A stretch of 64,000 nucleotides of DNA, from positions 62,001 to 126,000 of the forward strand of contig NZ_JALIQS010000001.1 of NCBI RefSeq assembly GCF_024704725.1. The letters run 5' to 3'. Source of the DNA: Shinella sp. CPCC 101442. Lineage in GTDB: Bacteria; Pseudomonadota; Alphaproteobacteria; Rhizobiales; Rhizobiaceae. The position numbers were made by a program, and so were the translations under genes. The notes under the pieces were generated by a model. That model saw only the letters and a list, made by a program, of their open reading frames with translations, was not told where the DNA came from and searched no databases. Below, in pieces: positions 15,576-28,939 of the stretch (position 1 is its first letter; each line of letters begins with the position of its first letter).

Positions 15576-15946
15576 TTCCGTTCCCCGTTTAACACGATTG
15601 TCCTTTTGGCATCCGATCGGGCGGATGTCATTTTCGTAAGTCAATCATACTATTGAGGGGAAAGACAACCCTTCTTTCTGGCTGTCCCCACTCCTTGAGA
15701 AAGAGGCATCTGACCTCCTGCTCAAGCGACGTGCAAACGCAGAGCGCGGAACCGGCGGCGGCGGATCAGACGACGTCGTCGTCCATCGGCGCAAATCTCG
15801 ATCCTGCCTTTTGGGGCGGTGGATTTAACGGCCGAACGCCTTTAATCCTTCCATCAACCGGCGCGCCTCATCCCTCCGGCAACGGCCCTTCCGTTGGGCT
15901 GGATTGGCGACATCCGGTGTCGGGACACGGAACGAGGAGAGCACGC
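15576..15946. other. Divergent intergenic region without gene
   Basis: About 370 bases between the divergent importer operon and lrgA-like gene. The lrgA frame stays open to the left, but the translated stretch lacks a membrane or domain pattern and the good ribosome site is at 15932-15940. Both promoters must lie here; I see no obvious operator or hairpin. Confidence 0.5.
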
Positions 15947-16321
15947 ATGCTTGTCGGAATAACGATCCTTCTGGTCTTCCAATTGATCGGCGAAGTCACA
16001 GCCTATTTTCTCGGCGGCTTCGTACCCGGTCCGGTCATCGGCATGGCGATGATCGCGGTGGTCCTGACGCTGACAGGCGGCGTAAAAATGCTTGAGCCGG
16101 CCCACCGGCAGACCCTGGAAACCTCGCGGTCGATTCTCGCCAATCTCGGCATTCTCTTCGTGCCGGCCGGGGTCGGCATCATTCAGCACCTCGATCTCAT
16201 TCGTGACCGCGGTTTTGCGCTCCTCGCCATCGTTCTGCTGTCGACGGTCATCACGCTCGCGGTGACGGTCTGGGTCTTCATATTGGTGAAGCGTCTTTCG
16301 GGAGGCTATGCCGATGAATAA
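15947..16321 (+). CDS. CidA/LrgA-family membrane protein
   Basis: A 124-residue protein with four hydrophobic helices and the LrgA/CidA motif (LGGFVPGPVIGMAMIAVVL). The family was first described as holin/antiholin-like regulators of murein hydrolases and is now also linked to pyruvate or glycolate transport together with the LrgB partner. The ATG at 15947 follows GAGGAGA by 6 bases. Its stop overlaps the start region of the LrgB gene, so the pair is translationally coupled. Confidence 0.85.
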   Translation: MLVGITILLVFQLIGEVTAYFLGGFVPGPVIGMAMIAVVLTLTGGVKMLEPAHRQTLETSRSILANLGILFVPAGVGIIQHLDLIRDRGFALLAIVLLSTVITLAVTVWVFILVKRLSGGYADE

Positions 16322-17012
16322 CGCTCTCTGGGTCTATCTCGCCACCTCGCCCCTTCTCTGGCTCGCAGGTACGCTGGTCGTCTGGCTCGCTGCGACGGCC
16401 ATGGCGGGCCTGCGTCCCGGCAATCCGCTTCTCAACCCGATCATGCTCACCATTGCCCTGATCGCTGCCGTGCTCTGTTTCGCCGGCATCGAGTACAAGA
16501 CCTATTTCGAGGGTGCGCAATTCATCCACTTTCTGCTGGGGCCGGCGACCGTCGCGCTCGGCATCCCGCTCTACGAAAAGCTCTCGCTGGTAAAGAGCAA
16601 TCTGGTCCCCATGCTGGCCGCCCTCGTCGTCGGCAGTCTGACCGCTGTGGGCGCCACCGTCTTCTTCGCCCATCTCTTCGGCTTCTCGCCTTCCGTCGTC
16701 GCCTCGCTTGCGCCGAAATCCACCACGGCGGCCGTCGCCATGGCCATCTCCTCAGGCCTTCAAGGCGACCCGGCATTGACCGCCGCTGTCGTCGTGCTGA
16801 CCGGCATCTGCGGCGCCATCATCGTCACGCCGATGATGAACGCCATGCGGATCAAGGATTACAGCGCCCGCGGCTTTGCCGTCGGGCTCGCCTCGCACGG
16901 CATCGGCACGGCACGCGCCTATTCCGTGGATCCGGTCGCCGGGCTGTTTTCCGGCATCGCCATGGGCCTCAATGCCGTCCTGACCTCCTTGATCGTCCAC
17001 CTCTTCCTGTAA
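16314..17012 (+). CDS. LrgB/CidB-family membrane protein
   Basis: A 232-residue protein with seven or so membrane helices. The family block SLAPKSTTAAVAMAIS and the later ASHGIGTARAYS are diagnostic of LrgB. It should act with the LrgA-like protein as a two-component export or holin-like system, or as a pyruvate/glycolate carrier. Of two in-frame ATGs, 16314 has the better spacing from GGAGG at 16301, and it overlaps the upstream stop. Confidence 0.88.
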   Translation: MNNALWVYLATSPLLWLAGTLVVWLAATAMAGLRPGNPLLNPIMLTIALIAAVLCFAGIEYKTYFEGAQFIHFLLGPATVALGIPLYEKLSLVKSNLVPMLAALVVGSLTAVGATVFFAHLFGFSPSVVASLAPKSTTAAVAMAISSGLQGDPALTAAVVVLTGICGAIIVTPMMNAMRIKDYSARGFAVGLASHGIGTARAYSVDPVAGLFSGIAMGLNAVLTSLIVHLFL

Positions 17013-18385: not shown

Positions 18386-18480
18386 CGCAAAAGCCGGCTT
18401 GATCTTCGGCCGCTTTGCTGACAGGAGCCGAGGAGAACGGTGCGGACGATCGGGTCGGCAACCGTGCGGGAGGCCCGACG

Positions 18481-18969
18481 ATGCGTTCCAGCCCACAAGA
18501 CCAGACCCATTCCCATCCGCTCGGCTTTCTCGTCGCCTTCGGCACCGGCGGCCTGCTCGCTTTGATGGTGCAGCTCAACGGCGCTCTGGCGCATTACGGC
18601 AATTCGCTGTTTTCCTCCTGGACCGCGCATGCGACGGGAACGGTCGCGGCGCTGCTGTTCCTTCTCGTGCTGCCCCGCCGCAGCACGGCCCTCGAACCAC
18701 GACCACCCGCACCGCTCTGGGCCTATCTCGGCGGGCTCTCGGGTGCGGCGACCGTCGTTCTCTCCTCCATGGCCGTGAACTCACCCGCCGGTCTTCCCGG
18801 CACGCTTGCGCTCGGGCTTGCCGGCCAGTTGGCCTTCGGGTTGGCAGCCGATGGCTGGGGCCTGTTCGGCCTGCCGAAGCGGCGCATTTCCCTGCGCGAT
18901 TTCGCAGCCCTTGCGCTGGTTCTGGCCGGTAGCCTGCTCATCCTTCTCGCAGGAAATGTCACCGCATGA
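18481..18969 (+). CDS. DMT-superfamily small transporter subunit, YdcZ/DUF606 type (first of pair)
   Basis: A 162-residue protein with five hydrophobic helices, half the length of a ten-helix EamA carrier. The pattern LAFGTGGLLALMVQLNGAL and GLPGTLALGLAGQLAFGLAAD fits the DUF606/YdcZ family, which occurs as tandem half-size genes. It overlaps the next gene by 4 bases (ATGA), so the two products probably form a heterodimer. The start at 18481 is the only ATG before the first helix that excludes a charged, unlikely leader. Substrate unknown. Confidence 0.75.
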   Translation: MRSSPQDQTHSHPLGFLVAFGTGGLLALMVQLNGALAHYGNSLFSSWTAHATGTVAALLFLLVLPRRSTALEPRPPAPLWAYLGGLSGAATVVLSSMAVNSPAGLPGTLALGLAGQLAFGLAADGWGLFGLPKRRISLRDFAALALVLAGSLLILLAGNVTA

Positions 18970-19394
18970 GCCCGTTCATCCTGATCGCCTGCTCCGCCGG
19001 CCTTCTCGTCGGCCTCAGCCGCCAACTCAACGGCCGGCTCAGCCTTTCGACCTCCCCGCTGATCGCCTCCTTCTGGAACCATCTTGTCGGTTTCGTCGCC
19101 CTGACGGCGCTCGGGCTGATCGTCGGCGGCCTGTGGCCTGCCAGTGCAGCCGACGCACCGTGGTACGCCTATCTCGGCGGTCCGATCGGCGTCGTCTTCG
19201 TAGCGCTGAGCAGCTGGCTCGTCGCGCGCATCGGCGCGGTCAACACTGCCCTCCTGATCATCGGCGGGCAGATGGTCTGCGGTCTTGCGATCGACCTCCT
19301 GCAATCCGGAAAACTGTCGCTCTGGCTTTCCAGTCTCGGCGTCGTGCTCATCATGGCCGGCATGCTGGTCGCCCAGCGCCGGCCACGCGGCTGA
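18966..19394 (+). CDS. DMT-superfamily small transporter subunit, YdcZ/DUF606 type (second of pair)
   Basis: A 142-residue, five-helix partner of the preceding protein. It shares the family motif (ACSAGLLVGLSRQLNGRLS, then FWNHLVGFVAL) and ends in MAGMLVAQRR. The pair reads like a split inverted-topology carrier. It converges on napC with only 3 bases between stops and no visible terminator, so read-through antisense into nap is possible. Confidence 0.75.
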   Translation: MSPFILIACSAGLLVGLSRQLNGRLSLSTSPLIASFWNHLVGFVALTALGLIVGGLWPASAADAPWYAYLGGPIGVVFVALSSWLVARIGAVNTALLIIGGQMVCGLAIDLLQSGKLSLWLSSLGVVLIMAGMLVAQRRPRG

Positions 19395-19397
19395 CGT

Positions 19398-20105
19398 CTA
19401 GAACGTCGTCACGCCATGCGCGCTGGCAACCGCCCGGCGCAGGTCGCCGATGGCATCGTTTGAGGCCGCTGGAAGCTCGTTCCCTTCCAGTTCCTTCGGC
19501 ATCTTCCAGCCGGGCTCGACACCTTTCATGTTCGGCAGTTCGTGCGCGATACCCTTGTGGCAATCGATACAGGTCGCCTTGCCCGGCAGGAGATACTTCG
19601 CGTGAATGTCGGCGGCACGCTGGGTCTGCTTGGTGAAATCCATCGCCACGGCGGAATGGCAGTTGCGGCATTCCAGGCTGTCGTTCGCCTTCAGGCGCGC
19701 CCATTCGTGTTTGGCGAGTTCCAGCCGCTTGTCGAGGAATTTTTCACGCGTGCTGATCGTGCCGAAGATCTTGCCCCAGACTTCCTTCGAGGCCTGCATC
19801 TTGCGGGCGATCTTGTCGGTCCACTGGTGTGGCACATGGCAATCCGGACAGGAGGCGCGCACGCCCGAGCGGTTGGTGAAATGCACGGTGTTCGTCAGTT
19901 CCTGATAGACGTTGTCCTTCATCTCATGACAGGAGGTGCAGAATTTCTCGGTGTTGGTCAGCTCCAGCGCCGTGTTGAAGGCGCCCCAGAACATCACGCC
20001 GCCGACGAAGCCGCCGAGCGTCAGAAAGGCGAGGCTGAGGGTCGCCGCCGGCGTCGTCAGGATGGTCCAGACCCAGACGATGAGTTCCTTGATGCGCGCC
20101 ATCAT
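19398..20105 (-). CDS. napC: NapC, tetrahaem cytochrome c quinol dehydrogenase
   Basis: A 235-residue membrane-anchored cytochrome of the NapC/NirT family. One N-terminal membrane helix (about 15-40) is followed by four CxxCH haem sites: CTSCH, CPDCH, CRNCH and CIDCH. It oxidises membrane quinol and reduces periplasmic NapB. It is the last gene of the operon; the ATG at 20105 touches the napB stop (TGATG), which decides among three adjacent start codons. Confidence 0.95.
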
Positions 20106-20596
20106 CACTCGCTTCCCGCATTGGTGACGCCAAGCTCGCTCATGTCCTTGAAGGTATTGCCGACGAGCGGTTTCTTATCCGCCTGCGGCACGTGGCAGGC
20201 AGTGCAGAAGTAGCGGCGCGGCGAGACGTCGGCGAGCATCTGGCCCTCACGCGTCATGTAATGGGTGACGCTGATCATCGGCGCGCCGGCATCCTGCGAG
20301 AACTCGCGCTTGTGGCAGGAGAGACAGCGGTTGGCATTGACCGAAAGCTGGTAGCCGTCGATCGAATGCGGAATGATCGGCGGCTGCTCGGGATAGGCGC
20401 GCATGCGCCTGATATCGTCGACGATCCACTTCGGCAGCGGATCGGCCGGCACCTCCTGCATCTTGTCTCCATCGGGACCGGAGAGCTGCGGCACCATCTG
20501 CGCCATGGCGCTGGTGGCGATGACGGCGGCGCTGAGCACAGCCAGCATCCATCCCTTGCGGAAGGTTATGCGACGGGTTCGATCTTGACTGCGCAT
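20105..20596 (-). CDS. napB: NapB, dihaem cytochrome c subunit of periplasmic nitrate reductase
   Basis: A 163-residue periplasmic electron-transfer subunit. A signal peptide ([16 protein letters not shown], cleavage near AMAQ) precedes two haem sites, CLSCH and CTACH. The conserved NapB stretch [20 protein letters not shown] is present. It receives electrons from NapC and passes them to NapA. The start at 20596 overlaps napA by 31 bases; an alternative ATG at 20548 would still keep the signal peptide but lacks well-spaced ribosome-binding sequence. Confidence 0.95.
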
Positions 20597-23070
20597 TTCT
20601 TGAAATCCGTCTGTTTCGAGATGGGATCGGTGGCGTCGAGCGTGACCTTGTTGATGAGCTGGCTGGCATCGAACCACGGCACGAAGATCACGCCTGGCGG
20701 CATGCGGTTGCGCCCGCGGGTCTCGACGCGCGAGCGGATTTCGCCGCGCCGCGAGATGATGCGGATTTCCGAGCCTTGGTTGAGGCCGCGCTTGCGAGCG
20801 TCGTCGGCGTTCATGAAGCAGCGCGCGCCCGGGAAGGCCTTGAAGAGTTCGGGCACGCGCATGGTCATCGAGCCGGAATGCCAATGCTCCAGCACGCGGC
20901 CGGTGACGAGCCAGGTGTCGAACTCATCGTCAGGCGATTCAGCCGGCGGCTCGTACGGCACCGCGATGATCGCCGCCCTGCCGTCCTTGTTGCCGTAGAA
21001 TTTGACGCCCTCGCCGGGCTTCACATAGGGGTCGTAACCTTCGCGGTAGCGCCAGAGCGTCTCCTTGCCATCGACGACCGGCCAACGCAGGCCGCGCCCC
21101 TCGTGATAGGTGTCGTAGGGAGCCAGGTCGTGGCCATGGCCGCGGCCGAAGGCGGCATATTCCTCGAACAGCCCCTTCTGGAGGTAAAAGCCGAAGTGCT
21201 GGGCCTCGTTGTTGTCGTGCTCCGGCTTGACCTCGCTGATCGGGAACTTTGCGACATCGCTTTCGGCGAAAAGCACCTGATAGAGCGTCTTGCCCTTGTA
21301 AGCGGGGTTCGCGGCCAGAAGGTCCGCAGGCCAGACCTCGTCGGTGGTGAAGCGCTTGGAGAACTCCACCATCTGCCAGAGGTCGGAGCGCGCTTCGCCC
21401 GGCGCCTGTACCAGCTGGTGCCAGACATGGGTTCGCCGCTCGGCATTGCCGTAGGCGCCTTCCTTCTCCACCCACATGGCGGCGGGCAGGATGAGGTCGG
21501 CGCTCATCGCCGTGATCGTCGGATAGGCATCCGAGACGACGATGAAATTGTCCGGATTGCGATAGCCCAGATAGGTCTCGTTGGAGGTGTTGGGACCGGC
21601 CTGGACGTTGTTGTTGACCTGCACCCAGTAGAAATTCAGCTTGCCGTCGCGCAGCATGCGATCCTGCTGCACGGCGTGATAACCGGGCTTTTCCGGGATG
21701 ATGCCATGCGGAACACGCCAGATCTCCTCCGCGTGCTTGCGGTGCTCGGGGTTGGTCACCGTCATATCGGCCGGCAGGCGATGGGCGAAGGTGCCGACCT
21801 CGCGCGCCGTGCCGCAGGCAGACGGCTGGCCGGTCAGCGAGAACGGGCTGTTGCCGGGCTCGGAAATCTTCCCCGTCAACAGATGCAGGTTATAGACCAT
21901 CTGGTTGGCCCATACACCGCGCACATGCTGGTTGAAGCCCATGGTCCAGAGCGACATGACCTTGCGGTTCGGGTCGGCATAGAGTTCGGCAAGCTGCTTG
22001 AGGAAGCCGGCTTCGACGCCGGTCATCTCGACGGCCTTTTCCAGCGTGTATTCCGCAACGAAAGCCTTGAAGGCCTCGAAGTCGATCGCCTCGGTCTTGG
22101 TCGGATCGGCCGCGTTCGCCGCCTTCACCTCCAGCGGATTGTCGGGGCGCAAGCCATAGCCGATATCCGTGACGCCCCGCACGAACTTCGTGTGGTTTCG
22201 AACGAAATCCTCGTTCACCCGGCCGGTCTGGATGATGTGATTGGCGATGTAGTTGAGGATGACGAGGTCCGTGCCCGGCTTGAAGACCATCGGGATGTCG
22301 GCCAGGTCCATGCTGCGATGGGTGAAGGTTGAGAGAACCGCCACGCGCACATGCTCATGGCCGAGCCGCCGGTCGGCGATGCGTGTCCAAAGGATCGGAT
22401 GCATCTCCGCCATGTTCGAGCCCCACAGCACGAAGGCATCGGCATGCTCGAAATCGTCGTAGCAGCCCATCGGCTCGTCCATGCCGAAGGTACGCATGAA
22501 GGCGTAAGCCGCCGAGGCCATGCAATGGCGGGCATTCGGGTCGAGATTGTTCGAGCGGAAGCCGGCGCGCATCAGCTTGGTCGCGGCATAACCTTCGAAG
22601 ATCGTCCACTGGCCGGAACCGAACATGCCGAGCGCCGTCGGCCCCTTCTCCTTCAACACCTTCTTGGCCTGTTCCGCCATCACATCGAAGGCCTCTTCCC
22701 AGGTCACCGGCTCGAACTCGCCGTCCTTGGCGTAGGCGCCGTCGCGCTTGCGCAGCAACGGTGCCGTCAGGCGGTCGGCACCGTACATGATCTTGGACAG
22801 GAAGTAGCCCTTGATGCAGTTGAGGCCGCGGTTGACCTCGGCCTGCATGTCGCCATGCGTGGCGACGACCTTACCTTCCTTGACGCCCACCATGACGCCG
22901 CAACCCGTGCCGCAGAAGCGGCAGGGTGCCTTGTCCCACTTGATTTCCAGCGCGCTCACCCCGCCCGGTACCGGCTGGGCGGCGACCGGCAGCGCAATGC
23001 CGGCCGCCGCCGCAGCGACGCCCGCCGCCTGGGCCTTCAGGATGTCACGCCGCGTCAGTTCGCTGCCCAT
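20566..23070 (-). CDS. napA: NapA, catalytic molybdoprotein of periplasmic nitrate reductase
   Basis: An 834-residue molybdenum bis-MGD enzyme reducing nitrate to nitrite in the periplasm. The Tat signal is [12 protein letters not shown], followed by a hydrophobic stretch and cleavage near PVAAQ. The [4Fe-4S] motif is Cys-x2-Cys-x3-Cys (CRFCGTGC) with the fourth Cys in [10 protein letters not shown]. The molybdenum ligand is the Cys of [10 protein letters not shown]. Length matches the family. The ATG at 23070 lies within the napD 3' end (26-base overlap). Maturation needs NapD and the Tat system. Confidence 0.97.
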
Positions 23071-23329
23071 CAGCCTCGTTCCCTTCCATTTCGACATGTT
23101 CGAAAACCATGTTTGCGGCGATCACACCGTCGAGGAGCGAGATGCGCATCAGCGTATCTCCGAGCACGCCGGTCGATGGCCCCTCGATGACGATGACGAT
23201 CTTGCCTTTGTCCGCACCGTACACCTCGACATTGTCGAACTCGGCAAGTGCGGTCAGCACGCCGTCGATCGCCACGGGTCTTGTGGCGATCACGGCGCTG
23301 GAAATGTGATGTTGCCGCCGATCAGGCAT
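23045..23329 (-). CDS. napD: NapD, NapA-specific maturation chaperone
   Basis: A 94-residue cytoplasmic chaperone that binds the NapA Tat signal and holds it until cofactor insertion is complete. [21 protein letters not shown] and the later [13 protein letters not shown] are typical. The ferredoxin-like fold and length agree with the family. It overlaps napF by 8 bases and napA by 26 bases, so translation of the three is tightly linked. Confidence 0.9.
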
Positions 23330-23825
23330 AGGCGGCCTCCGCTTCTCGCGGCGCCGGCGCTATCGCACCGACGGGACAGACGGAGATGCAGGCACCGCAG
23401 CCCGTGCAGGCTTCGGCCAGCAACTCCGGTACAAACGGCCCGCCACGCACGGGGCGAAAACGGATCGCGCCGGTGGGACAGCCATCCCGGCAGGCCTGAC
23501 AATCGACGCGCTGGAATGGCAGGCACGAGGTTTCGATGGCGACGATGTGGGCAAAGCTGGTGGCCGGGGCGCCGGTGAACACCGGCTCCGGACAGTGTTG
23601 CGCGCAGGCGCCGCAGAAAGTGCATTCGCCGACCGAAAAATCGAGCACCGGCAACCGGTCGACAAGACTGACGATCTGGCTCGGACAGCGTTCGACACAG
23701 GCGCCGCAGCCCGTGCACGCGGCAAGCGACGCCTCTTCGATCCCAGGCGGACGAATATGGACGGATGCGTTTCGACGACCGCCTCTCAGGAAATCCCGTC
23801 TCGATACCGTTTCGCGCCGCTCCAT
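23322..23825 (-). CDS. napF: NapF, four-cluster ferredoxin-type accessory protein
   Basis: A 167-residue cytoplasmic iron-sulphur protein. Four cluster motifs are visible: CTGCGACVERC, CTFCGACAQHC, CQACRDGC and CTGCGACISVC, each with a downstream Cys-Pro. NapF assists assembly of the NapA iron-sulphur centre before export. SRRDFLRGG near the N-terminus resembles a Tat motif but no hydrophobic core follows, as usual for NapF. It starts at ATG 23825, 10 bases after napE. Confidence 0.92.
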   Translation of the reverse strand: MERRETVSRRDFLRGGRRNASVHIRPPGIEEASLAACTGCGACVERCPSQIVSLVDRLPVLDFSVGECTFCGACAQHCPEPVFTGAPATSFAHIVAIETSCLPFQRVDCQACRDGCPTGAIRFRPVRGGPFVPELLAEACTGCGACISVCPVGAIAPAPREAEAAYA

Positions 23826-23835
23826 CGTCGCGCCC

Positions 23836-24027
23836 TCAATGGGCCGGCGGGCCGGGAGGCCCATAGATGATCTGGAGCCCCCATACCAGAAAGCCGTAGC
23901 CGCCCACGATGCCGACGGCGACGATAGGCCAGATTCCGAAAGCCAGAATGAGGAAGGTGATCAATTCGCGGCGGCGCGTGGATTTCGACACCTGCGGCGA
24001 CGTATGTTCTGTCGAGACTTCGGACAA
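23836..24027 (-). CDS. napE: NapE, small membrane protein of the nap operon
   Basis: A 63-residue single-helix membrane protein and first gene of the operon. The helix (LITFLILAFGIWPIVAVGIV) followed by GYGFLVWGLQIIYGPPGPP is the NapE signature. Its exact role is unknown; it may support the NapC-NapAB complex. The apparent start is a TTG at 24027 with GGAGG nine bases upstream; no ATG lies before the helix in frame. Confidence 0.88.
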   Translation of the reverse strand: MSEVSTEHTSPQVSKSTRRRELITFLILAFGIWPIVAVGIVGGYGFLVWGLQIIYGPPGPPAH

Positions 24028-24319
24028 GGTTCACTTCCTCCGACGCAAGATCATTGACGCGATAGTAGCACTGGAGAACTGAAAATAAAGCAGAAAAAAC
24101 TAAACTATTCCACTCATGATAATACTTGTCAAATATCAACAAGCGATATATATTAATAAATATAACGAAGATCGAGAAACCCTTCAGTTCATCTCGCCAA
24201 AATAGAGAGCGCAGACTAAAAAGCGAAATAAAATTAGAATAATTGAATGTAAAAATTCCCATATGTTTTAAAAGTGTTTTACCTATCTACAAGTGGAGCA
24301 GCCATCCGAACCACGCGCC
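24028..24319. promoter_or_regulatory. AT-rich nap promoter region
   Basis: Nearly 300 bases between ubiV and napE are strikingly AT-rich, particularly 24080-24290, with many A/T runs, in a window otherwise rich in GC. A frame of 158 codons crosses it but is just a consequence of few stops and does not read like a protein. The region is long enough for an independent, oxygen- or nitrogen-oxide-controlled nap promoter, and for binding of an AT-preferring silencer such as MucR/Ros (inference). Confidence 0.6.
24126..24139 (-). promoter_or_regulatory. FNR/NnrR-type box upstream of napE
   Basis: Read on the nap strand the site is TTGATATTTGACAA, matching TTG-N8-CAA, with a perfect left FNR half (TTGAT) and a one-mismatch right half. 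Its centre is about 105 bases before the napE start; a class II promoter (box at -41.5) would give a leader of about 64 bases. FnrN, FixK and NnrR all bind this pattern, so the identity of the regulator is open. Confidence 0.65.
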
Positions 24320-25252
24320 TCAGCCATGCCCCAGGCCCGCGGACCGGCCTCGTGAAACCCAGGCGGCCCCTTCCTGCTGATGCAGGAAGCCGTTCGAAAA
24401 GCGCACACCCGGATAGGCCTTCGCCAATTCCACAAGTGCCTCTTCGCCGTCCATACGCCCGTCGAGCACCGTGCGGTAGAGCGCCGCGACGCGGACCATG
24501 TCGCAGTCCTGCGGCGAGAGCCGGATACGGGAAAGACCCGCATCGACCAATGGCGCGAGATCGTCGAGCAGGACGGCGCAACTGCTGGACATGGTCTGCA
24601 CGCCGTTGAGCACCAGGAAGGACTGGCGGTCGAGCGTGCGCAACGGCAGACCGTCCGGGTCGCCGCCGCAGATGAACTGGCAATTGTCCTTGGTCAGCCC
24701 CTTCGAGCGCGCATGGGCACAGCGCGCGGAGATGGCCAGCGGCATACGGCCGAAAGCGAAGAGTTCGAAGGAAAAACCGGGCATGGCTTCAAGCATCCGA
24801 TGGACGGAGGTAGCAGGAAGCTCCGGCGGCAGGCAGATAGTGTTCGCTCCGCGCGCAGCAAGCGTGCGCGCCGTGGCGGCATTGTAGACATTGACCAGCG
24901 GACCGATCGAATGCGGCTGCCCCTTGAGCAGGCCAAGCGCGGAGAGGTCGTTCGCTTCCACCGCATGAACGCTATCGCGGATGAGATCGCGCACCTGCCG
25001 GCTTTCGCGCTCCAGGGTCACCATCGCGAGCGTCGAGAGCGTCACCTCTTTGCCGGCCGCCTCCAGCCGCTCGATGACCTCGGCGACATGCGGCTCGCTG
25101 AAATGCTGGCGCTTGGAACAGACCGTCTCGCCCAGCGTGACATACTCGACCGCAGCTTCGTCGGCGATGCGGAAATAGAAATCCCGCCACTTCGGCCCGT
25201 CCCACAAATAGTAGACCGGCCCGAGGCTCAGGGCTGCCCGCTTCATTTTCAT
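24320..25252 (-). CDS. ubiV: UbiV, oxygen-independent ubiquinone hydroxylation subunit
   Basis: A 310-residue U32-family iron-sulphur protein that works with UbiU to hydroxylate the ubiquinone ring without O2, using prephenate as the oxygen donor in characterised systems. The four cluster cysteines are seen at 45, 178, 191 and 195; the 13- and 4-residue spacings equal those of Escherichia coli UbiV as I remember them. It is not a protease despite the family name. The ATG at 25252 has AGGAG eight bases upstream. It follows ubiU after 11 bases and precedes the nap leader. Confidence 0.9.
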   Translation of the reverse strand: MKMKRAALSLGPVYYLWDGPKWRDFYFRIADEAAVEYVTLGETVCSKRQHFSEPHVAEVIERLEAAGKEVTLSTLAMVTLERESRQVRDLIRDSVHAVEANDLSALGLLKGQPHSIGPLVNVYNAATARTLAARGANTICLPPELPATSVHRMLEAMPGFSFELFAFGRMPLAISARCAHARSKGLTKDNCQFICGGDPDGLPLRTLDRQSFLVLNGVQTMSSSCAVLLDDLAPLVDAGLSRIRLSPQDCDMVRVAALYRTVLDGRMDGEEALVELAKAYPGVRFSNGFLHQQEGAAWVSRGRSAGLGHG

Positions 25253-25263
25253 CCTGTCATCTC

Positions 25264-26241
25264 CTAACGCCAGCGCTTGTCGTAGGCGCCGGAGGTGGTG
25301 CGCTGGCCTTCGCTCATCGTCCGCAATCGGGAAACGAGGGCAGAGCGTTCCGCCGGGGTCGCGCCGAGCGCTTTCTTCAGCGAGGAAACCACCTCGGCGA
25401 CATAGGCCTTGCCGCGTTGCCGCCCCTCTATCTTCAGCGCCGAGACGCCAGCCGCCTTCAACGCGTCGATCTCGTCGATCACATCGAGCGAGACCGGGTC
25501 CTCGAAGGCGTAGCCTTCCGTGCCACCGACATCGAAGCGGCCTTTGCAGAGCGTCGGATAGCCGGAGGCCTCGCCGGGCCCGAAGCGATTGATCGTGTAG
25601 GCGCCGAGTTCGGAGACGAGCGCGCCCTCCTCCTCCCGGTAGCGCACATGGCTTGCCGGCGAACACACGCCGTTCATGTTCGGCGACTTGCCTGTCGCGT
25701 AGGAGGACAGCGAGCAGCGCCCCTCCGCCATCACGCAAAGACCGCCAAAGGCAAAGACCTCCACCTCGCAATCGATCTGCCGGGTGAGGCGGGCAATGTC
25801 CTGAACTGTCAGCACGCGCGGCAGCACCACGCGCTTGGCAGCGAAGGCTTCTACGAGGAAGCGGATCGCATCCGGGTTCGAGGCCGAGGCCTGGACGGAG
25901 ACATGCAGCCGTTGCTCCGGATATCGCTCAGCCACATAGGCCATCAGCCCGAAATCGGCGACGATGAGAGCGTCTGCCCCCAGCGCCACCGCGTCGTCGG
26001 CGGCGGCATACCAGAGGGCCTCGTCGCCGGCCCGCATGAAGGTGTTGAGGGCAACGAAGGTCTGTACGCCCTTGCGGCGGGCGAGCATGATCGACTGGCG
26101 CAGCTCCTCTCGGCTGAAATTGAGGCCCGGGAAATTGCGCGCATTGGTCTCGTCGCGAAAACCGCAATAGACGGCATCCGCTCCGGCTTCCAGCGCCTCG
26201 CGGAAAGCGGCGGGCGTGCCGGCGGGGCAGATCAGTTCCAT
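25264..26241 (-). CDS. ubiU: UbiU, oxygen-independent ubiquinone hydroxylation subunit
   Basis: A 325-residue U32-family protein forming the UbiU-UbiV heterodimer with a [4Fe-4S] cluster in each subunit. Cysteines at 169, 176, 193 and 232 (GGLCVMAEGRC, NGVC, YPTLCKGRF) fall at the same positions as the cluster ligands known for the E. coli protein. MELICPAGTPAAFREALEAG is the standard N-terminus. Its start overlaps ubiT by 10 bases. Confidence 0.92.
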   Translation of the reverse strand: MELICPAGTPAAFREALEAGADAVYCGFRDETNARNFPGLNFSREELRQSIMLARRKGVQTFVALNTFMRAGDEALWYAAADDAVALGADALIVADFGLMAYVAERYPEQRLHVSVQASASNPDAIRFLVEAFAAKRVVLPRVLTVQDIARLTRQIDCEVEVFAFGGLCVMAEGRCSLSSYATGKSPNMNGVCSPASHVRYREEEGALVSELGAYTINRFGPGEASGYPTLCKGRFDVGGTEGYAFEDPVSLDVIDEIDALKAAGVSALKIEGRQRGKAYVAEVVSSLKKALGATPAERSALVSRLRTMSEGQRTTSGAYDKRWR

Positions 26242-26738
26242 GCCGCGTCCCTCCCTTCGAGCGCCCGCGCCCGGATGTGGCGGGCCGCAGCCGCCACCAG
26301 CGGCGAAAACGGGCCTGCCAGCGCGCCAAATTCCCTCGGCAGGTCGATGGCGCTGTCATCAAGCGTGTTGCGCAGTGCCAGCATCGCTTCCATGTCGCCG
26401 GTGACGGAGAGATCGCGCGAGAAAAACAGCGCGTCGGCATCGCAGCGCCCTTCCAGCAGGCCGAGCAGCAGCGCGAGCGGCCCCTCGATGCGCGCATCGG
26501 CCAAGGGCGGCTCACCACGCGAAACGGCAAGCGACTGGGCCGCCGGCACGACGCGGAAATGCAGCGGCAGGTCGCAGGGCGAGAAACAGTAACGCGTCTG
26601 CTTGTACTGCCCGAGCCGGTCGAAGAGATCGGGGTGCGCCTTCAGCACGCTGGAAAAGATCGCACGCGCCACGCGCTCCACGAACCAGAGCGGCGCGATT
26701 TCGACAGGTTTGGCAAGGAGGGGAGGAAGGGTGGGCAT
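26232..26738 (-). CDS. ubiT: UbiT, SCP2-domain accessory factor of anaerobic ubiquinone synthesis
   Basis: A 168-residue protein with a sterol-carrier-protein-2-like lipid-binding domain (YCFSPCDLPLHFRVVPAAQS, then LFFSRDLSVTGDMEAMLALRNTLDD). UbiT replaces UbiJ when ubiquinone is made without oxygen, presumably presenting prenylated intermediates to UbiUV. The frame continues upstream through the opposite gene, but the ATG at 26738 behind GGAGG-rich sequence is the natural start. It heads the ubiTUV operon and is divergent from ubiD. Confidence 0.85.
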   Translation of the reverse strand: MPTLPPLLAKPVEIAPLWFVERVARAIFSSVLKAHPDLFDRLGQYKQTRYCFSPCDLPLHFRVVPAAQSLAVSRGEPPLADARIEGPLALLLGLLEGRCDADALFFSRDLSVTGDMEAMLALRNTLDDSAIDLPREFGALAGPFSPLVAAAARHIRARALEGRDAAWN

Positions 26739-26798
26739 GCGGGTTCGCCTTGGCGGGAATGAATGCGCAAAGCCTAGGGAGCGTTGACCCGGGGGAGT

Positions 26799-26812
26799 TT
26801 GCTCCAGCACAA
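26799..26812. promoter_or_regulatory. Candidate TTG-N8-CAA box between ubiT and ubiD
   Basis: TTGCTCCAGCACAA fits the outer trinucleotides of the FNR/NnrR consensus but not the inner AT/AT bases. It lies in the 108-base divergent spacer, about 60 bases from ubiT and 35 from ubiD, so one regulator could serve both. It is a weak match taken together with the nap box. Confidence 0.3.
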
Positions 26813-26846
26813 AGACCGTGACGTTTTTCCCCGGCAAGGGTTCGGC

Positions 26847-28358
26847 ATGAAAGCCGATATCCCCATTCCGCGCCGCTATGACAGCCTTCAGGATTTCGTC
26901 GCCCTGCTCGAACGGCGGGCGCGGCTGAAGCGCATCCACGAGCCCGTTTCGCTGGTACACGAGGTCACCGAAATCCACCGTCGCGTGCTTGCGCAGGAGG
27001 GCCCCGCGCTGCTGTTCGAGAGGTCTGTCGATGGTGGCGGCAACATCCAGCCCGTGCCGCTCCTTGCCAATCTTTTTGGAACGCGCGAACGGATCGAATG
27101 GGGTTTCGGGCTCGAAACCGGCGACCTGCCGCATCTTGCCTCCTTCCTCGCGGACCTGCGCGATCCGAAACCGCCGCGATCCATGCGCGATGCCTGGCGG
27201 AAGCTGCCGCATCTCAAAGCCGCCCTGTCGATGAACCCGCGCGCGGTCTCCCGCCCGCCCTGCCAACACACGATCTGGCAGGGCGAGGCCATCGACCTCG
27301 GCCGCCTGCCGATCCAGACCTGCTGGCCGGGCGAACCTGCACCCCTCGTCAGCTGGCCGCTCGTCATCACCCGGGCACCCGACGACCCATCCGACATCAA
27401 TGTCGGCATCTACCGCATGCAGAAGCTCGGAAAGAACAGACTGATCCTGCGCTGGCTGGCGCATCGCGGAGGGGCGCGCCACCACCGGCTCTGGCAGGCA
27501 CGCGGAGAAGAAATGCCCGTTGCCGTCGTCATCGGCGCCGATCCCGCCACCATCCTCTCCGCCGTCATGCCGCTGCCGGACGGCATGAGCGAACTCGCCT
27601 TTGCCGGCGTGCTGTGCGGCCGACGGCAGCAGACGGCATCGGGCGTCACCGTGCCGCTCCCCATCCCCGCCAGTGCGGAGATCGTGCTGGAAGGCACCGT
27701 GTCCGCCAGCGAAACGGCAGAGGAAGGTCCCTATGGCGACCACACGGGCTACTACAACTCCGTCGAGGCCTTCCCGGTCCTGACGCTCTCGGCGATCACG
27801 ATGCGGAAAAACCCGCTCTACCTCTCCACCTATACCGGCCGGCCGCCGGATGAGCCCTCGCGGCTCGGCGAGGCGATGAACGACCTGTTCGTACCGCTGG
27901 TGAAGCGGCAGTTTCCCGAAATCCACGATCTCTGGCTGCCGCCCGAAGCCTGTTCCTACCGCGCCATGGTCGTCTCCATCGACAAGCGCTATCCGGGCCA
28001 GGCGCGGCGGGTGATGATGGGCCTCTGGTCCATGCTGCCGCAATTCAGCTACACCAAGCTGATCATCGCCGTGGACGGCGATATCGATGTCAAAAGCTGG
28101 CCGGATGTCATCTGGGCGCTTTCGACCCGCTTCGACGCCAGCCGCGACCTCATGATCGTCGATAACACGCCGATCGACTATCTCGACTTCGCCTCGCCGA
28201 AATCCGGCCTCGGCGGCAAGCTCGGCCTCGATGCCACCACGAAGATCGGCACGGAAACCGACCGCGAATGGGGGCGCCCCCTCGCGATGACGCCCGATGT
28301 CGTGGCAAGGGTCGATGGCCTCTGGCATTCGCTTGGCCTCGGGGAGACGATCGCATGA
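26847..28358 (+). CDS. ubiD: UbiD-family prenyl-FMN decarboxylase
   Basis: A 503-residue decarboxylase of the UbiD family. It should remove the carboxyl group of 3-polyprenyl-4-hydroxybenzoate using prenylated FMN. The flavin/metal region ITRAPDDPSDINVGIYRMQ, the catalytic-loop stretch EGPYGDHTGYYN and the C-terminal DATTKIGTETDREWGRP are all family hallmarks. The start at ATG 26847 avoids a 21-codon non-conserved extension. It overlaps ubiX by 4 bases. Some UbiD homologues act on other aromatic acids, but pairing with ubiX and ubiTUV supports ubiquinone synthesis. Confidence 0.9.
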   Translation: MKADIPIPRRYDSLQDFVALLERRARLKRIHEPVSLVHEVTEIHRRVLAQEGPALLFERSVDGGGNIQPVPLLANLFGTRERIEWGFGLETGDLPHLASFLADLRDPKPPRSMRDAWRKLPHLKAALSMNPRAVSRPPCQHTIWQGEAIDLGRLPIQTCWPGEPAPLVSWPLVITRAPDDPSDINVGIYRMQKLGKNRLILRWLAHRGGARHHRLWQARGEEMPVAVVIGADPATILSAVMPLPDGMSELAFAGVLCGRRQQTASGVTVPLPIPASAEIVLEGTVSASETAEEGPYGDHTGYYNSVEAFPVLTLSAITMRKNPLYLSTYTGRPPDEPSRLGEAMNDLFVPLVKRQFPEIHDLWLPPEACSYRAMVVSIDKRYPGQARRVMMGLWSMLPQFSYTKLIIAVDGDIDVKSWPDVIWALSTRFDASRDLMIVDNTPIDYLDFASPKSGLGGKLGLDATTKIGTETDREWGRPLAMTPDVVARVDGLWHSLGLGETIA

Positions 28359-28939
28359 CCGTGGAGCGCGTCATCGTCGGCATTTCCGGCGCATCCGGTG
28401 CAGCGCTCGGCGTGCGCATTGTCGAGCGGCTCTCGGCACTCCCCGACATCGAAACCCATCTCGTCGTTTCCGACGCGGCGCGGCGCACGCTTGCGCTCGA
28501 ATGCGGTCTCGATACACCTGAAAACCTCACCTCCCTCGTCGATCGTCATCACCCGATCGACGATGTCGGCGCTTCCATCGCCAGCGGCTCCTTCCCGGTC
28601 CATGGCATGATCGTCGCGCCCTGCTCCATGCAGACGTTGTCGGCCATCGCCACCGGCCGCGCCGATACGCTGCTCACGCGTGCAGCCGACGTGCAATTGA
28701 AGGAGCGCCGCCGGCTTGTCCTGCTTGCGCGGGAAACGCCGCTGCATCTCGGCCATCTGCGCGCCATGGTCTCGGCGACCGAGATGGGCGCCATCATCAT
28801 GCCGCCGGTCCCCGCCTTCTATCATCGGCCGAACTCCGTCGCCGAGATTGTCGACCACCTCGCCGCCCGGGCCATCGACCTTCTCGCGCTTGCCCGCCCG
28901 TCGCTGACGCGAAGCTGGGAAGGAACGGGCGGCGCGTAG
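28355..28939 (+). CDS. ubiX: UbiX, flavin prenyltransferase
   Basis: A 194-residue flavin prenyltransferase making the prenyl-FMN cofactor that UbiD requires. The Rossmann-like FMN site is VGISGASGAALGVRIVERL, and PCSMQTLSAIATGRADTLLTRAADV with LARETPLHLGHLRAM gives the family pattern. It overlaps ubiD (ATGA). One base separates its stop from the facing EamA gene stop. Confidence 0.93.
   Translation: MTVERVIVGISGASGAALGVRIVERLSALPDIETHLVVSDAARRTLALECGLDTPENLTSLVDRHHPIDDVGASIASGSFPVHGMIVAPCSMQTLSAIATGRADTLLTRAADVQLKERRRLVLLARETPLHLGHLRAMVSATEMGAIIMPPVPAFYHRPNSVAEIVDHLAARAIDLLALARPSLTRSWEGTGGA

Follow-up and report, generated by a model that had tools for sequence, protein, structure and literature searches.

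The window, meaning the whole 64,000-nucleotide stretch of DNA that was analysed, contains eleven genes between positions 19398 and 28939: napEFDABC, ubiVUT, and ubiDX, each where the original prediction placed it. The genes and spacers are as follows.

19398–20108, − strand: napC, quinol-oxidising tetrahaem cytochrome (Pfam NapC/NirT, 255 bits; eight Cys as four CXXC pairs)
20105 to about 20620 (start approximate), − strand: napB, dihaem subunit (Pfam NapB, 164 bits)
20566–23097, − strand: napA, catalytic Mo subunit (Pfam Molybdopterin, Molydop_binding, and Fe4S4)
23045–23329, − strand: napD, chaperone (Pfam NapD, 82.5 bits)
23322–23864, − strand: napF, ferredoxin-type protein (TIGR00402, 102.5 bits, a narrow pass of the cut-off of 102.2)
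23836–24027, − strand: napE (TIGR02973, 73.9 bits, cut-off 68.8)
24028–24319: A+T-rich spacer of 292 bases on the upstream side of nap (sequence)
24320–25252, − strand: ubiV, 4Fe-4S partner of UbiU (NF047965, 360.7 bits, cut-off 275; four ligand Cys)
25264–26241, − strand: ubiU, C169 type (NF047963, 494 bits, cut-off 440; Cys169/176/193/232)
26232–26738, − strand: ubiT, SCP2-domain accessory factor (NF047962, 74.2 bits, cut-off 46.9)
26739–26846: divergent ubiT/ubiD spacer (best FNR-like site, 8/10 positions)
26847–28358, + strand: ubiD, ubiquinone-type decarboxylase (NF008175, 616.7 bits; nearest solved proteins 5m1c/2idb)
28355–28939, + strand: ubiX, flavin prenyltransferase (TIGR00421, 209 bits, cut-off 108.9)

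The cut-offs for UbiU, UbiV, UbiT, NapE, and NapF are NCBIfam equivalog cut-offs. All six Nap proteins (NapA, NapB, NapC, NapD, NapE, and NapF) are found, in the gene order and with the subunits of rhizobial napEFDABC, and the same genes are found in relatives. UbiT, UbiU, and UbiV are all present and mutually adjacent. As predicted, ubiD and ubiX (+ strand) diverge from ubiT (− strand), and nap lies downstream of ubiTUV on the same strand, although not directly downstream, since the 292-base spacer follows ubiV.

The cluster ligands Cys169/176/193/232 are exact in the window UbiU, and the Cys spacings of 13 and 4 in UbiV are borne out, with one further Cys upstream. A sequence search finds no relatives of UbiU among solved structures. 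For ubiD, the first listed start (26784) looks too early; 26847 aligns better with solved UbiD and is probably the true start. The score of the window UbiD on NF008175 is below the curated cut-off of 788 bits, which is passed by the E. coli control and by none of 297 genomes of the order or 247 genomes of the family. The cut-off therefore excludes the whole group, and the identity of UbiD rests on its nearest characterised relative. Among solved proteins this is 3-octaprenyl-4-hydroxybenzoate carboxy-lyase (5m1c/2idb), matched over residues 10–498 with 589.6 bits; the next sequence scores 146.5 bits. E. coli UbiD is about 53% identical to the window protein.

Ubiquinone-type UbiD in genomes with and without UbiU

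In the order draw, ubiquinone-type UbiD is present in 55 of 297 genomes, all 55 UbiU-positive, and in 0 of 220 UbiU-less genomes. In the family draw (247 genomes, three of its UbiU-positive genomes shared with the order draw), the corresponding counts are 42 of 42 and 0 of 193. UbiD scores are bimodal in both draws, being either at least 391 bits or at most 189 bits. Physical linkage contributes to this co-occurrence, 35 of the 55 pairs lying no more than 2.4 kb apart; nor can related genomes be counted as independent. Of the 55 UbiD-positive order genomes, 54 have a UbiX that scores above the cut-off; in the exception, G062, the ubiD match extends to base 2 of the contig. ubiD and ubiU are divergent in all 35 linked order cases, with ubiT between them in 29 of 29 loci fetched. 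This divergence, together with the family scores, rules out a chance arrangement.

Two UbiU-less genomes (G429 and G445) retain decayed pieces of ubiD or ubiX, and intact blocks occur elsewhere in their genera. In Sinorhizobium meliloti 1021 the block is located on pSymA, and a Sinorhizobium strain without pSymA and pSymB is reported to grow well in minimal medium (PMC4207669). Both observations fit a UbiD tied to the anaerobic route, the second provided that the S. meliloti chromosome carries no other UbiD. The observed gene content, linkage, and co-occurrence support the proposal that ubiDX provides a dedicated anaerobic decarboxylation step.

We consider it highly probable that ubiTUV and ubiDX together form an O2-independent ubiquinone cassette, that UbiD is not needed in the presence of O2, and that nap is simply a local neighbour. 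We infer the enzyme activities, electron flow, and regulation as follows. UbiX would make prenylated FMN, UbiD would take the C1 carboxyl off 3-polyprenyl-4-hydroxybenzoate, and UbiU–UbiV, with help from UbiT, would add hydroxyls without O2. UbiA, UbiE, and UbiG serve aerobic and O2-free routes alike in E. coli and, by analogy, would be common to both routes here. With O2, a UbiN-type flavin monooxygenase would release CO2 as it hydroxylates C1, leaving the remaining hydroxylations to two UbiL/UbiH-like enzymes. UbiD would not be needed under these conditions, and ubiDX would therefore travel with ubiTUV and be lost with it. When nitrate is the acceptor, ubiquinol would feed NapC–NapAB, with nap remaining outside the conserved unit.

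In aerobic cells this step probably falls to a flavin enzyme of the UbiN type, which resembles salicylate hydroxylase and is known from Rhodobacter capsulatus. The candidate in the genome that contains the window lies at C7:226 kb (L013). Its nearest solved relatives are decarboxylative vanillate 1-hydroxylase, salicylate monooxygenase, and 6-hydroxynicotinate 3-monooxygenase, with 4-hydroxybenzoate decarboxylase slightly more distant; its putative identity as UbiN is judged by similarity to these labelled enzymes and by the near-universal presence of such matches. UbiN-like matches at E 1e-20 or better occur in 291 of 297 order genomes and 253 of 254 high-quality genomes, a loose threshold that would also admit other salicylate-hydroxylase-like enzymes; some of the matches, in family f4, are weak (about 1e-21 to 1e-31). 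The coq7-type hydroxylase for which a check had been suggested is absent from the same genome. Coq4 was rejected as the aerobic decarboxylase, with two weak matches in 297 order genomes, one of them over the cut-off, and none found in the genome of the window.

Other roles can be envisaged for ubiDX. A second UbiD/UbiX pair does exist in the genome, at C1:345–347 kb, and the original prediction allowed for an aerobic copy of this kind beside an anaerobic one in the window. Such a division for ubiquinone is very unlikely: the second UbiD scores 170–181 bits on the ubiquinone UbiD equivalog versus 616 for the window copy, and its neighbours are two amidohydrolases and a molybdenum hydroxylase. 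The pair is of catabolic type, and the idea of a second aerobic ubiDX was rejected. In addition, at E 0.001 the UbiD model finds nothing in 196 of the 220 order genomes that lack UbiU. It is less improbable, yet still unlikely, that the window ubiDX serves both aerobic and anaerobic synthesis and adjoins ubiTUV by coincidence. There is a precedent in E. coli, where UbiD is used with and without O2 (PMC6747719), and R. capsulatus UbiD is described as expressed and functional with O2 (PMC10626278). However, no UbiU-less genome in either draw has a ubiquinone-type UbiD, a UbiN-like match is nearly universal, and loss of both pSymA and pSymB leaves S. meliloti growing well (PMC4207669). Finally, UbiD-family enzymes are diverse and the window protein falls short of 788 bits, so that an unrelated aromatic acid might be the substrate; with the ubiquinone UbiD as nearest solved protein over 489 residues, and linkage of ubiDX to ubiTUV kept across many families, we regard this as barely credible. 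A dedicated anaerobic role for UbiD indicates that in this order the enzyme belongs to anaerobic life, that its annotation as a general ubiquinone decarboxylase is misleading, and that UbiU-less relatives must rely on another enzyme for decarboxylation.

Position of nap relative to the ubi genes

The nap and ubi genes had been described as encoded in one block. They share a strand and are separated by only 292 bases in the window; nap also adjoins ubi genes in L179 and in Sinorhizobium sp. 8-89 (L314), adjoins ubiD in L152 and L185, and lies near ubiD on a Neorhizobium petrolearium plasmid. A single functional and regulatory block is nevertheless doubtful. Of 73 ubiU loci, only two have nap within about 9 kb and ten have nor, and the two gene sets are apart, or on separate replicons, in the named Shinella records. 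A conserved nap–ubi unit is not supported.

The spacer between ubiV and napE resembles a separate promoter region. Its length and A+T-richness (24028–24319) suggest that nap probably has a promoter of its own. It contains one FNR-like sequence at 24126–24139 (9/10 positions; 6% of 200 shuffles score equally), which is at most suggestive of an FNR-like site. No clear FNR site is found upstream of ubiT in the window, where the best sequence in the ubiT/ubiD spacer matches 8/10 positions, a score reached by 6% of 50 shuffles. Among divergent ubiT/ubiD spacers, 16 of 39 reach 9/10, versus 0.46 expected; the window spacer is not one of these.

A UbiU ligand in relatives without UbiD

The unexpected part of the comparison is that UbiD-less relatives mostly lack one iron–sulfur ligand of UbiU. 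Gly replaces the cluster ligand Cys169 in 30 of 34 UbiU-positive, UbiD-less genomes and in 0 of 92 UbiD-positive genomes read. UbiU with Gly169 and Tyr236 in the absence of UbiD spans several alphaproteobacterial orders, with Rhodovulum among the hosts. A scan of named genomes gives 70 G169 loci, a number that is no measure of Gly frequency, as the peptide pattern used contains the Gly. FNR-like sequences of 9/10 lie upstream of 38 of 95 C169 loci (2.4 expected) and 17 of 30 G169 loci (0.4 expected).

Both kinds of UbiU are found within 8 families and 4 genera. The best UbiU tree has two Gly169 origins, but it does not reject a single one (p-AU 0.148) and offers too few independent pairs to be tested. 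Support rests instead on the species level (8 families, 4 genera). The predicted structure of a G169 UbiU has a mean pLDDT of 71, falling under 50 over residues 169–199, and is uninformative at the cluster site. In a fold search its first match is the U32 protein 5d88; the others among the 50 matches listed are other enzymes, most of them barrel folds.

The G169 variant may work without UbiD. One tentative interpretation, to which we attach a small probability, is that there are two kinds of cassette: one with a four-Cys UbiU that needs UbiDX, and one with a Gly169/Tyr236 UbiU that lacks UbiD. In the latter, three of the four known Cys would hold the cluster, and the open iron would allow UbiUV to hydroxylate C1 with loss of CO2. 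E. coli UbiUV is reported to be unable to bypass loss of ubiD in air (PMC10470549), as expected for the four-Cys kind. An about evenly balanced proposition is that C169G is a plain ligand change, in which a different residue, possibly Cys158, fills the vacant place at the cluster, the hydroxylation chemistry is unchanged, and another anaerobic decarboxylase replaces UbiD. In accordance, Cys158 is present in 26 of 26 main-clade G169 proteins versus 68 of 97 C169 proteins, and an extra Cys at 130 in 23 of 26 versus 0 of 97. However, the four other G169 proteins, from genus g34, have Met at 158, and no known aromatic decarboxylase is present among the neighbours scanned and identified (a minority) in regions of 11–19 kb at 22 UbiD-less order loci.

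A few neighbour clusters recur across families at these loci. One recurrent gene, immediately upstream of ubiT in G268 and G093, encodes a DAO-type FAD oxidoreductase; it is also a neighbour at the UbiD-positive G022, and in G093 it adjoins a class-III aminotransferase gene. Other scanned immediate neighbours encode an efflux pump pair, a rhodanese protein, NnrS, and a DUF4893 protein, and two have no family match.

Some facultative anaerobes without UbiD (Rhodovulum, Rhodomicrobium) have been suggested to have another anaerobic decarboxylation system (PMC10626278). With the ligand change that tracks the absence of UbiD, this question gains a candidate protein, one specific residue, and hosts that can be cultured. 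If the two-cassette interpretation is true, Gly169 UbiUV would be an O2-independent decarboxylative hydroxylase, and thus that missing system.

Comparison with known systems

The block itself is an already known arrangement. In Hyphomicrobium denitrificans, the same five genes are clustered (Hden_0564–0568), with a single ubiXDTUV set that is co-regulated with denitrification and tied to nitrate respiration, and an aerobic substitute for UbiD was already suspected (PMC12423496). The H. denitrificans genes are clustered with nitric oxide reductase, whereas the window block lies beside nap, a position in which most relatives examined differ. PMC12423496 gives one genome, whereas the UbiD–UbiU rule here is counted over two genome draws.

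The division of labour predicted here, UbiDX and UbiUV without O2, and UbiN and two UbiL with O2, with no Coq7, is that of Rhodobacter capsulatus. There it is shown by mutants, growth without ubiDX being normal with O2 and absent without it, and growth without ubiN occurring without O2 and not with it (PMC10626278); here it is deduced from gene content. E. coli UbiT, UbiU, and UbiV share the cluster ligands of the window proteins, but E. coli UbiD serves both conditions (PMC6747719). The C169G UbiU of UbiD-less relatives departs from the four UbiU cysteines that the same report terms strictly conserved (PMC6747719).

Gene identities and neighbours of the window block

All eleven nap and ubi genes are found where the original prediction placed them, as judged from sequence and family profile matches.

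19398-26738, minus strand: napEFDABC and ubiVUT
26847-28939, plus strand: ubiDX, divergent from ubiT

UbiU, UbiV, UbiT, NapE, and NapF of the window pass the curated NCBIfam cut-offs, and UbiX passes TIGR00421. Against the E. coli-type equivalog, UbiD reaches 616.7 bits, short of the 788-bit cut-off, which is attained by none of 297 order and 247 family genomes. The closest solved protein to full-length UbiD is ubiquinone UbiD (5m1c/2idb, 589.6 bits; next sequence, 146.5). The predicted iron-sulphur ligands of UbiU (Cys169, Cys176, Cys193, and Cys232) and the cysteine spacing of UbiV are exact, and these cysteines are reported to bind one 4Fe-4S cluster per protein (PMC6747719). Contrary to the original proposal, nap does not directly follow ubiV; 292 bases of A+T-rich DNA separate ubiV from napE. 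On its other side, nap is accompanied by an LrgA/LrgB-like pair and two DMT-type transporters, assigned by eye (15653-17012 and 18415-19394).

The neighbours of ubiU were surveyed at 73 loci, up to about 9 kb per side (a little more in the window and shorter where contigs end). A napA match of 800 bits or more is present at two loci (the window and L179) and norB at ten; the family Rhizobiaceae holds nine of these 12. Therefore, the ubi block recurs near denitrification genes, and its adjacency to nap is only local. At two further loci (L152 and L185), nap adjoins ubiD, with ubiU on a different contig, and the ubi locus of Sinorhizobium sp. 8-89 (L314) carries both nap and nor. The nearest named plasmid DNA comes from Shinella and near relatives, in which nap and ubi are apart or on separate replicons. 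The norB of the window's own genome lies on another contig (G000:C3:664058-665377) and shares 99% identity with the norB of a congener whose nor genes are close to its ubi block.

Of 39 ubiT/ubiD spacers, 16 contain an FNR-like site matching at least 9 of 10 positions, against an expectation of 0.46; the best site in the window spacer matches 8. Candidate FNR sites are reported at 87% of ubiTUV triplets across the phylum (PMC11707229).

Co-occurrence of UbiD with UbiU

The order was sampled evenly (297 genomes). UbiU is present in 77 genomes (375 bits or more, three below the curated cut-off) and ubiquinone-type UbiD in 55 (435 bits or more), all of them among the 77; none of the 220 UbiU-less genomes has a ubiquinone-type UbiD. 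The family sample of 247 genomes, which shares three UbiU-positive genomes with the order sample, gives the same picture: UbiU in 54, UbiD (391 bits or more) in 42, all UbiU-positive, and no UbiD in the 193 UbiU-less genomes. UbiD scores are bimodal in both samples, with no match between 189.1 and 391 bits. Fisher values for the co-occurrence are far too small at face value because the genomes are related, and we place the weight on the one-way pattern.

In 35 order genomes, ubiD and ubiU share a locus, divergent every time with a gap of 624-2345 bases, and ubiT lies inside the gap in all 29 loci fetched. The two genes are distant on one contig in nine genomes and on separate contigs in 11. 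UbiX exceeds its cut-off in 54 of the 55 UbiD-positive genomes, in 3 of the 22 with UbiU and no UbiD, and in 23 of the 220 without UbiU, all 23 having another UbiD-family match. Four genomes (G028, G107, G138, and G102) have ubiX only elsewhere, about 7 kb or less from another UbiD-family gene, and a Shinella zoogloeoides plasmid carries ubiD and ubiTUV with no adjoining ubiX (L320:5872-9910). One ubiD match (L197, in G507) is split into two pieces in different frames, by a real break or a sequencing error. G461 has two full-length ubiU copies on separate contigs (L232 and L233).

UbiU residue 169 in genomes lacking UbiD

Of the 128 UbiU-positive genomes, 126 were covered in a reading of UbiU sequences, which comprised 127 proteins because one genome has two; the UbiD-positive G282 and G296 were left out. 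Position 169 is cysteine in all 92 UbiD-positive genomes read (93 proteins). Among the 34 UbiD-negative genomes, it is glycine in 30 and cysteine in four; Gly169 together with UbiD is found in none of the 126.

L118-L132, L113-L116, and L199-L209: open reading frames of Gly169, Tyr236 UbiU, from 30 of the 34 UbiD-less, UbiU-positive genomes

The other three UbiU ligands are kept beside Gly169 (one protein is truncated by a contig edge ahead of position 232), and UbiV has all four of its ligands in 124 of 124 proteins. The UbiU positions that best track UbiD status (167, 168, 169, 231, and 236) lie near ligands 169 and 232, and Phe236 is replaced by tyrosine in all 30 Gly169 proteins. Two UbiU trees, of 72 and 57 rows and together covering all 30, place 26 in one clade (100/100), and the remaining four, from genus g34, sit apart from it on a long branch; a single origin is compatible with the tree test (p-AU 0.148). 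Both kinds occur in 8 of 25 families and in four of the genera compared, and in every mixed group UbiD is missing from the Gly169 genomes and present in a Cys169 genome. At 17 of the 30 Gly169 loci, 16 of them with a perfect match, an FNR-like site lies within 250 bases before ubiT, against 0.4 expected; these operons therefore appear to be under anaerobic control.

The g34 proteins (L113-L116) also lack the otherwise common Cys5 and Cys158, and a pair of AcrB/HlyD-type efflux pump genes lies upstream of their genes. The four Cys169 genomes without ubiquinone-type UbiD (G116, G010, G276, and G389; loci L111, L112, L117, and L190) may reflect a loss in the recent past, gaps in the sequence, or a different route.

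In a scan of named genomes based on the Gly169 clade, ubiD lies, among the best 80 loci, within 8 kb (less at contig ends) of 0 of 70 Gly169 and 7 of 10 Cys169 loci; the search pattern favours Gly169, making its frequency here meaningless. The Gly169 loci include four Rhodovulum species (L294, L297, L298, and L300), a genus reported to lack ubiD (PMC10626278). In Thioclava nitratireducens, ubiTUV with a Gly169, Tyr236 UbiU adjoins narGHJI and hemN, and no ubiD is among the features listed in the surrounding 40 kb.

Of the order sample, 19 genomes carry Gly169; 16 of these lack both a UbiD-family match and a UbiX above the cut-off, and all 19 have a UbiN-like match. It is conceivable, though improbable and a guess, that the decarboxylation is carried out by Gly169 UbiUV itself. 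E. coli UbiUV, of the four-cysteine kind, cannot bypass ubiD loss in air, and C176A UbiU fails (PMC10470549). At least as likely, Gly169 is a ligand swap and a separate decarboxylase acts. Equally likely or likelier than decarboxylation by UbiUV is a hidden low-O2 use of UbiN.

Candidate aerobic counterpart and relation to known systems

A second, aerobic ubiD/ubiX pair had been suggested as a possibility elsewhere in the genome. One further UbiD and one further UbiX do exist, but the pair is taken as catabolic, because this UbiD scores 170-181 bits on the ubiquinone equivalog and neighbours two amidohydrolases, a CobW protein, XdhC, and a molybdenum hydroxylase. Coq7 is absent from the genome. 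Its strong flavin-monooxygenase matches include L009 and L011 (UbiL/UbiH-like, named by eye) and the salicylate-hydroxylase-like L013, which we take, from sequence, as a candidate UbiN. With a limit of E 1e-20, a match to L013 is present in 291 of 297 order genomes (253 of 254 of high quality); this limit is loose and may admit similar enzymes. The solved proteins closest to L013 carry the labels decarboxylative vanillate 1-hydroxylase and salicylate, 6-hydroxynicotinate, and tropone monooxygenase; 4-hydroxybenzoate decarboxylase is slightly more distant. Coq4 gives two weak matches in the 297 genomes.

The block has probably been lost in some genomes. The UbiU-less G429 keeps a UbiD piece and G445 pieces of UbiD and UbiX, and congeners (G491; G365 and G505) have the full block. 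The decayed ubiD or ubiX pieces in genomes without ubiU lie at L187:9826-10122 and L189:9403-10026. In G340, the genome search gave a weak UbiU scrap, which was not borne out when the locus was searched separately. S. meliloti 1021 carries ubiXD/ubiTUV on pSymA, adjoining nor, and a Sinorhizobium strain lacking both pSymA and pSymB shows good growth in minimal medium (PMC4207669).

The four UbiU cysteines are termed strictly conserved (PMC6747719), and the published passages on UbiU that were consulted do not mention a Cys169 variant or its tie to UbiD. The order-wide UbiD/UbiU rule and Gly169 UbiU are the additions of the present analysis. The window block itself adds one more example to the ubiXD-ubiTUV clusters known from H. 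denitrificans and to the UbiDX/UbiUV system, which mutants have established in R. capsulatus. R. capsulatus without ubiDX grows normally in air and not at all anaerobically, and without ubiN the pattern is reversed (PMC10626278), directly displaying the same logic as the loss and apparent dispensability of ubiDX described above.
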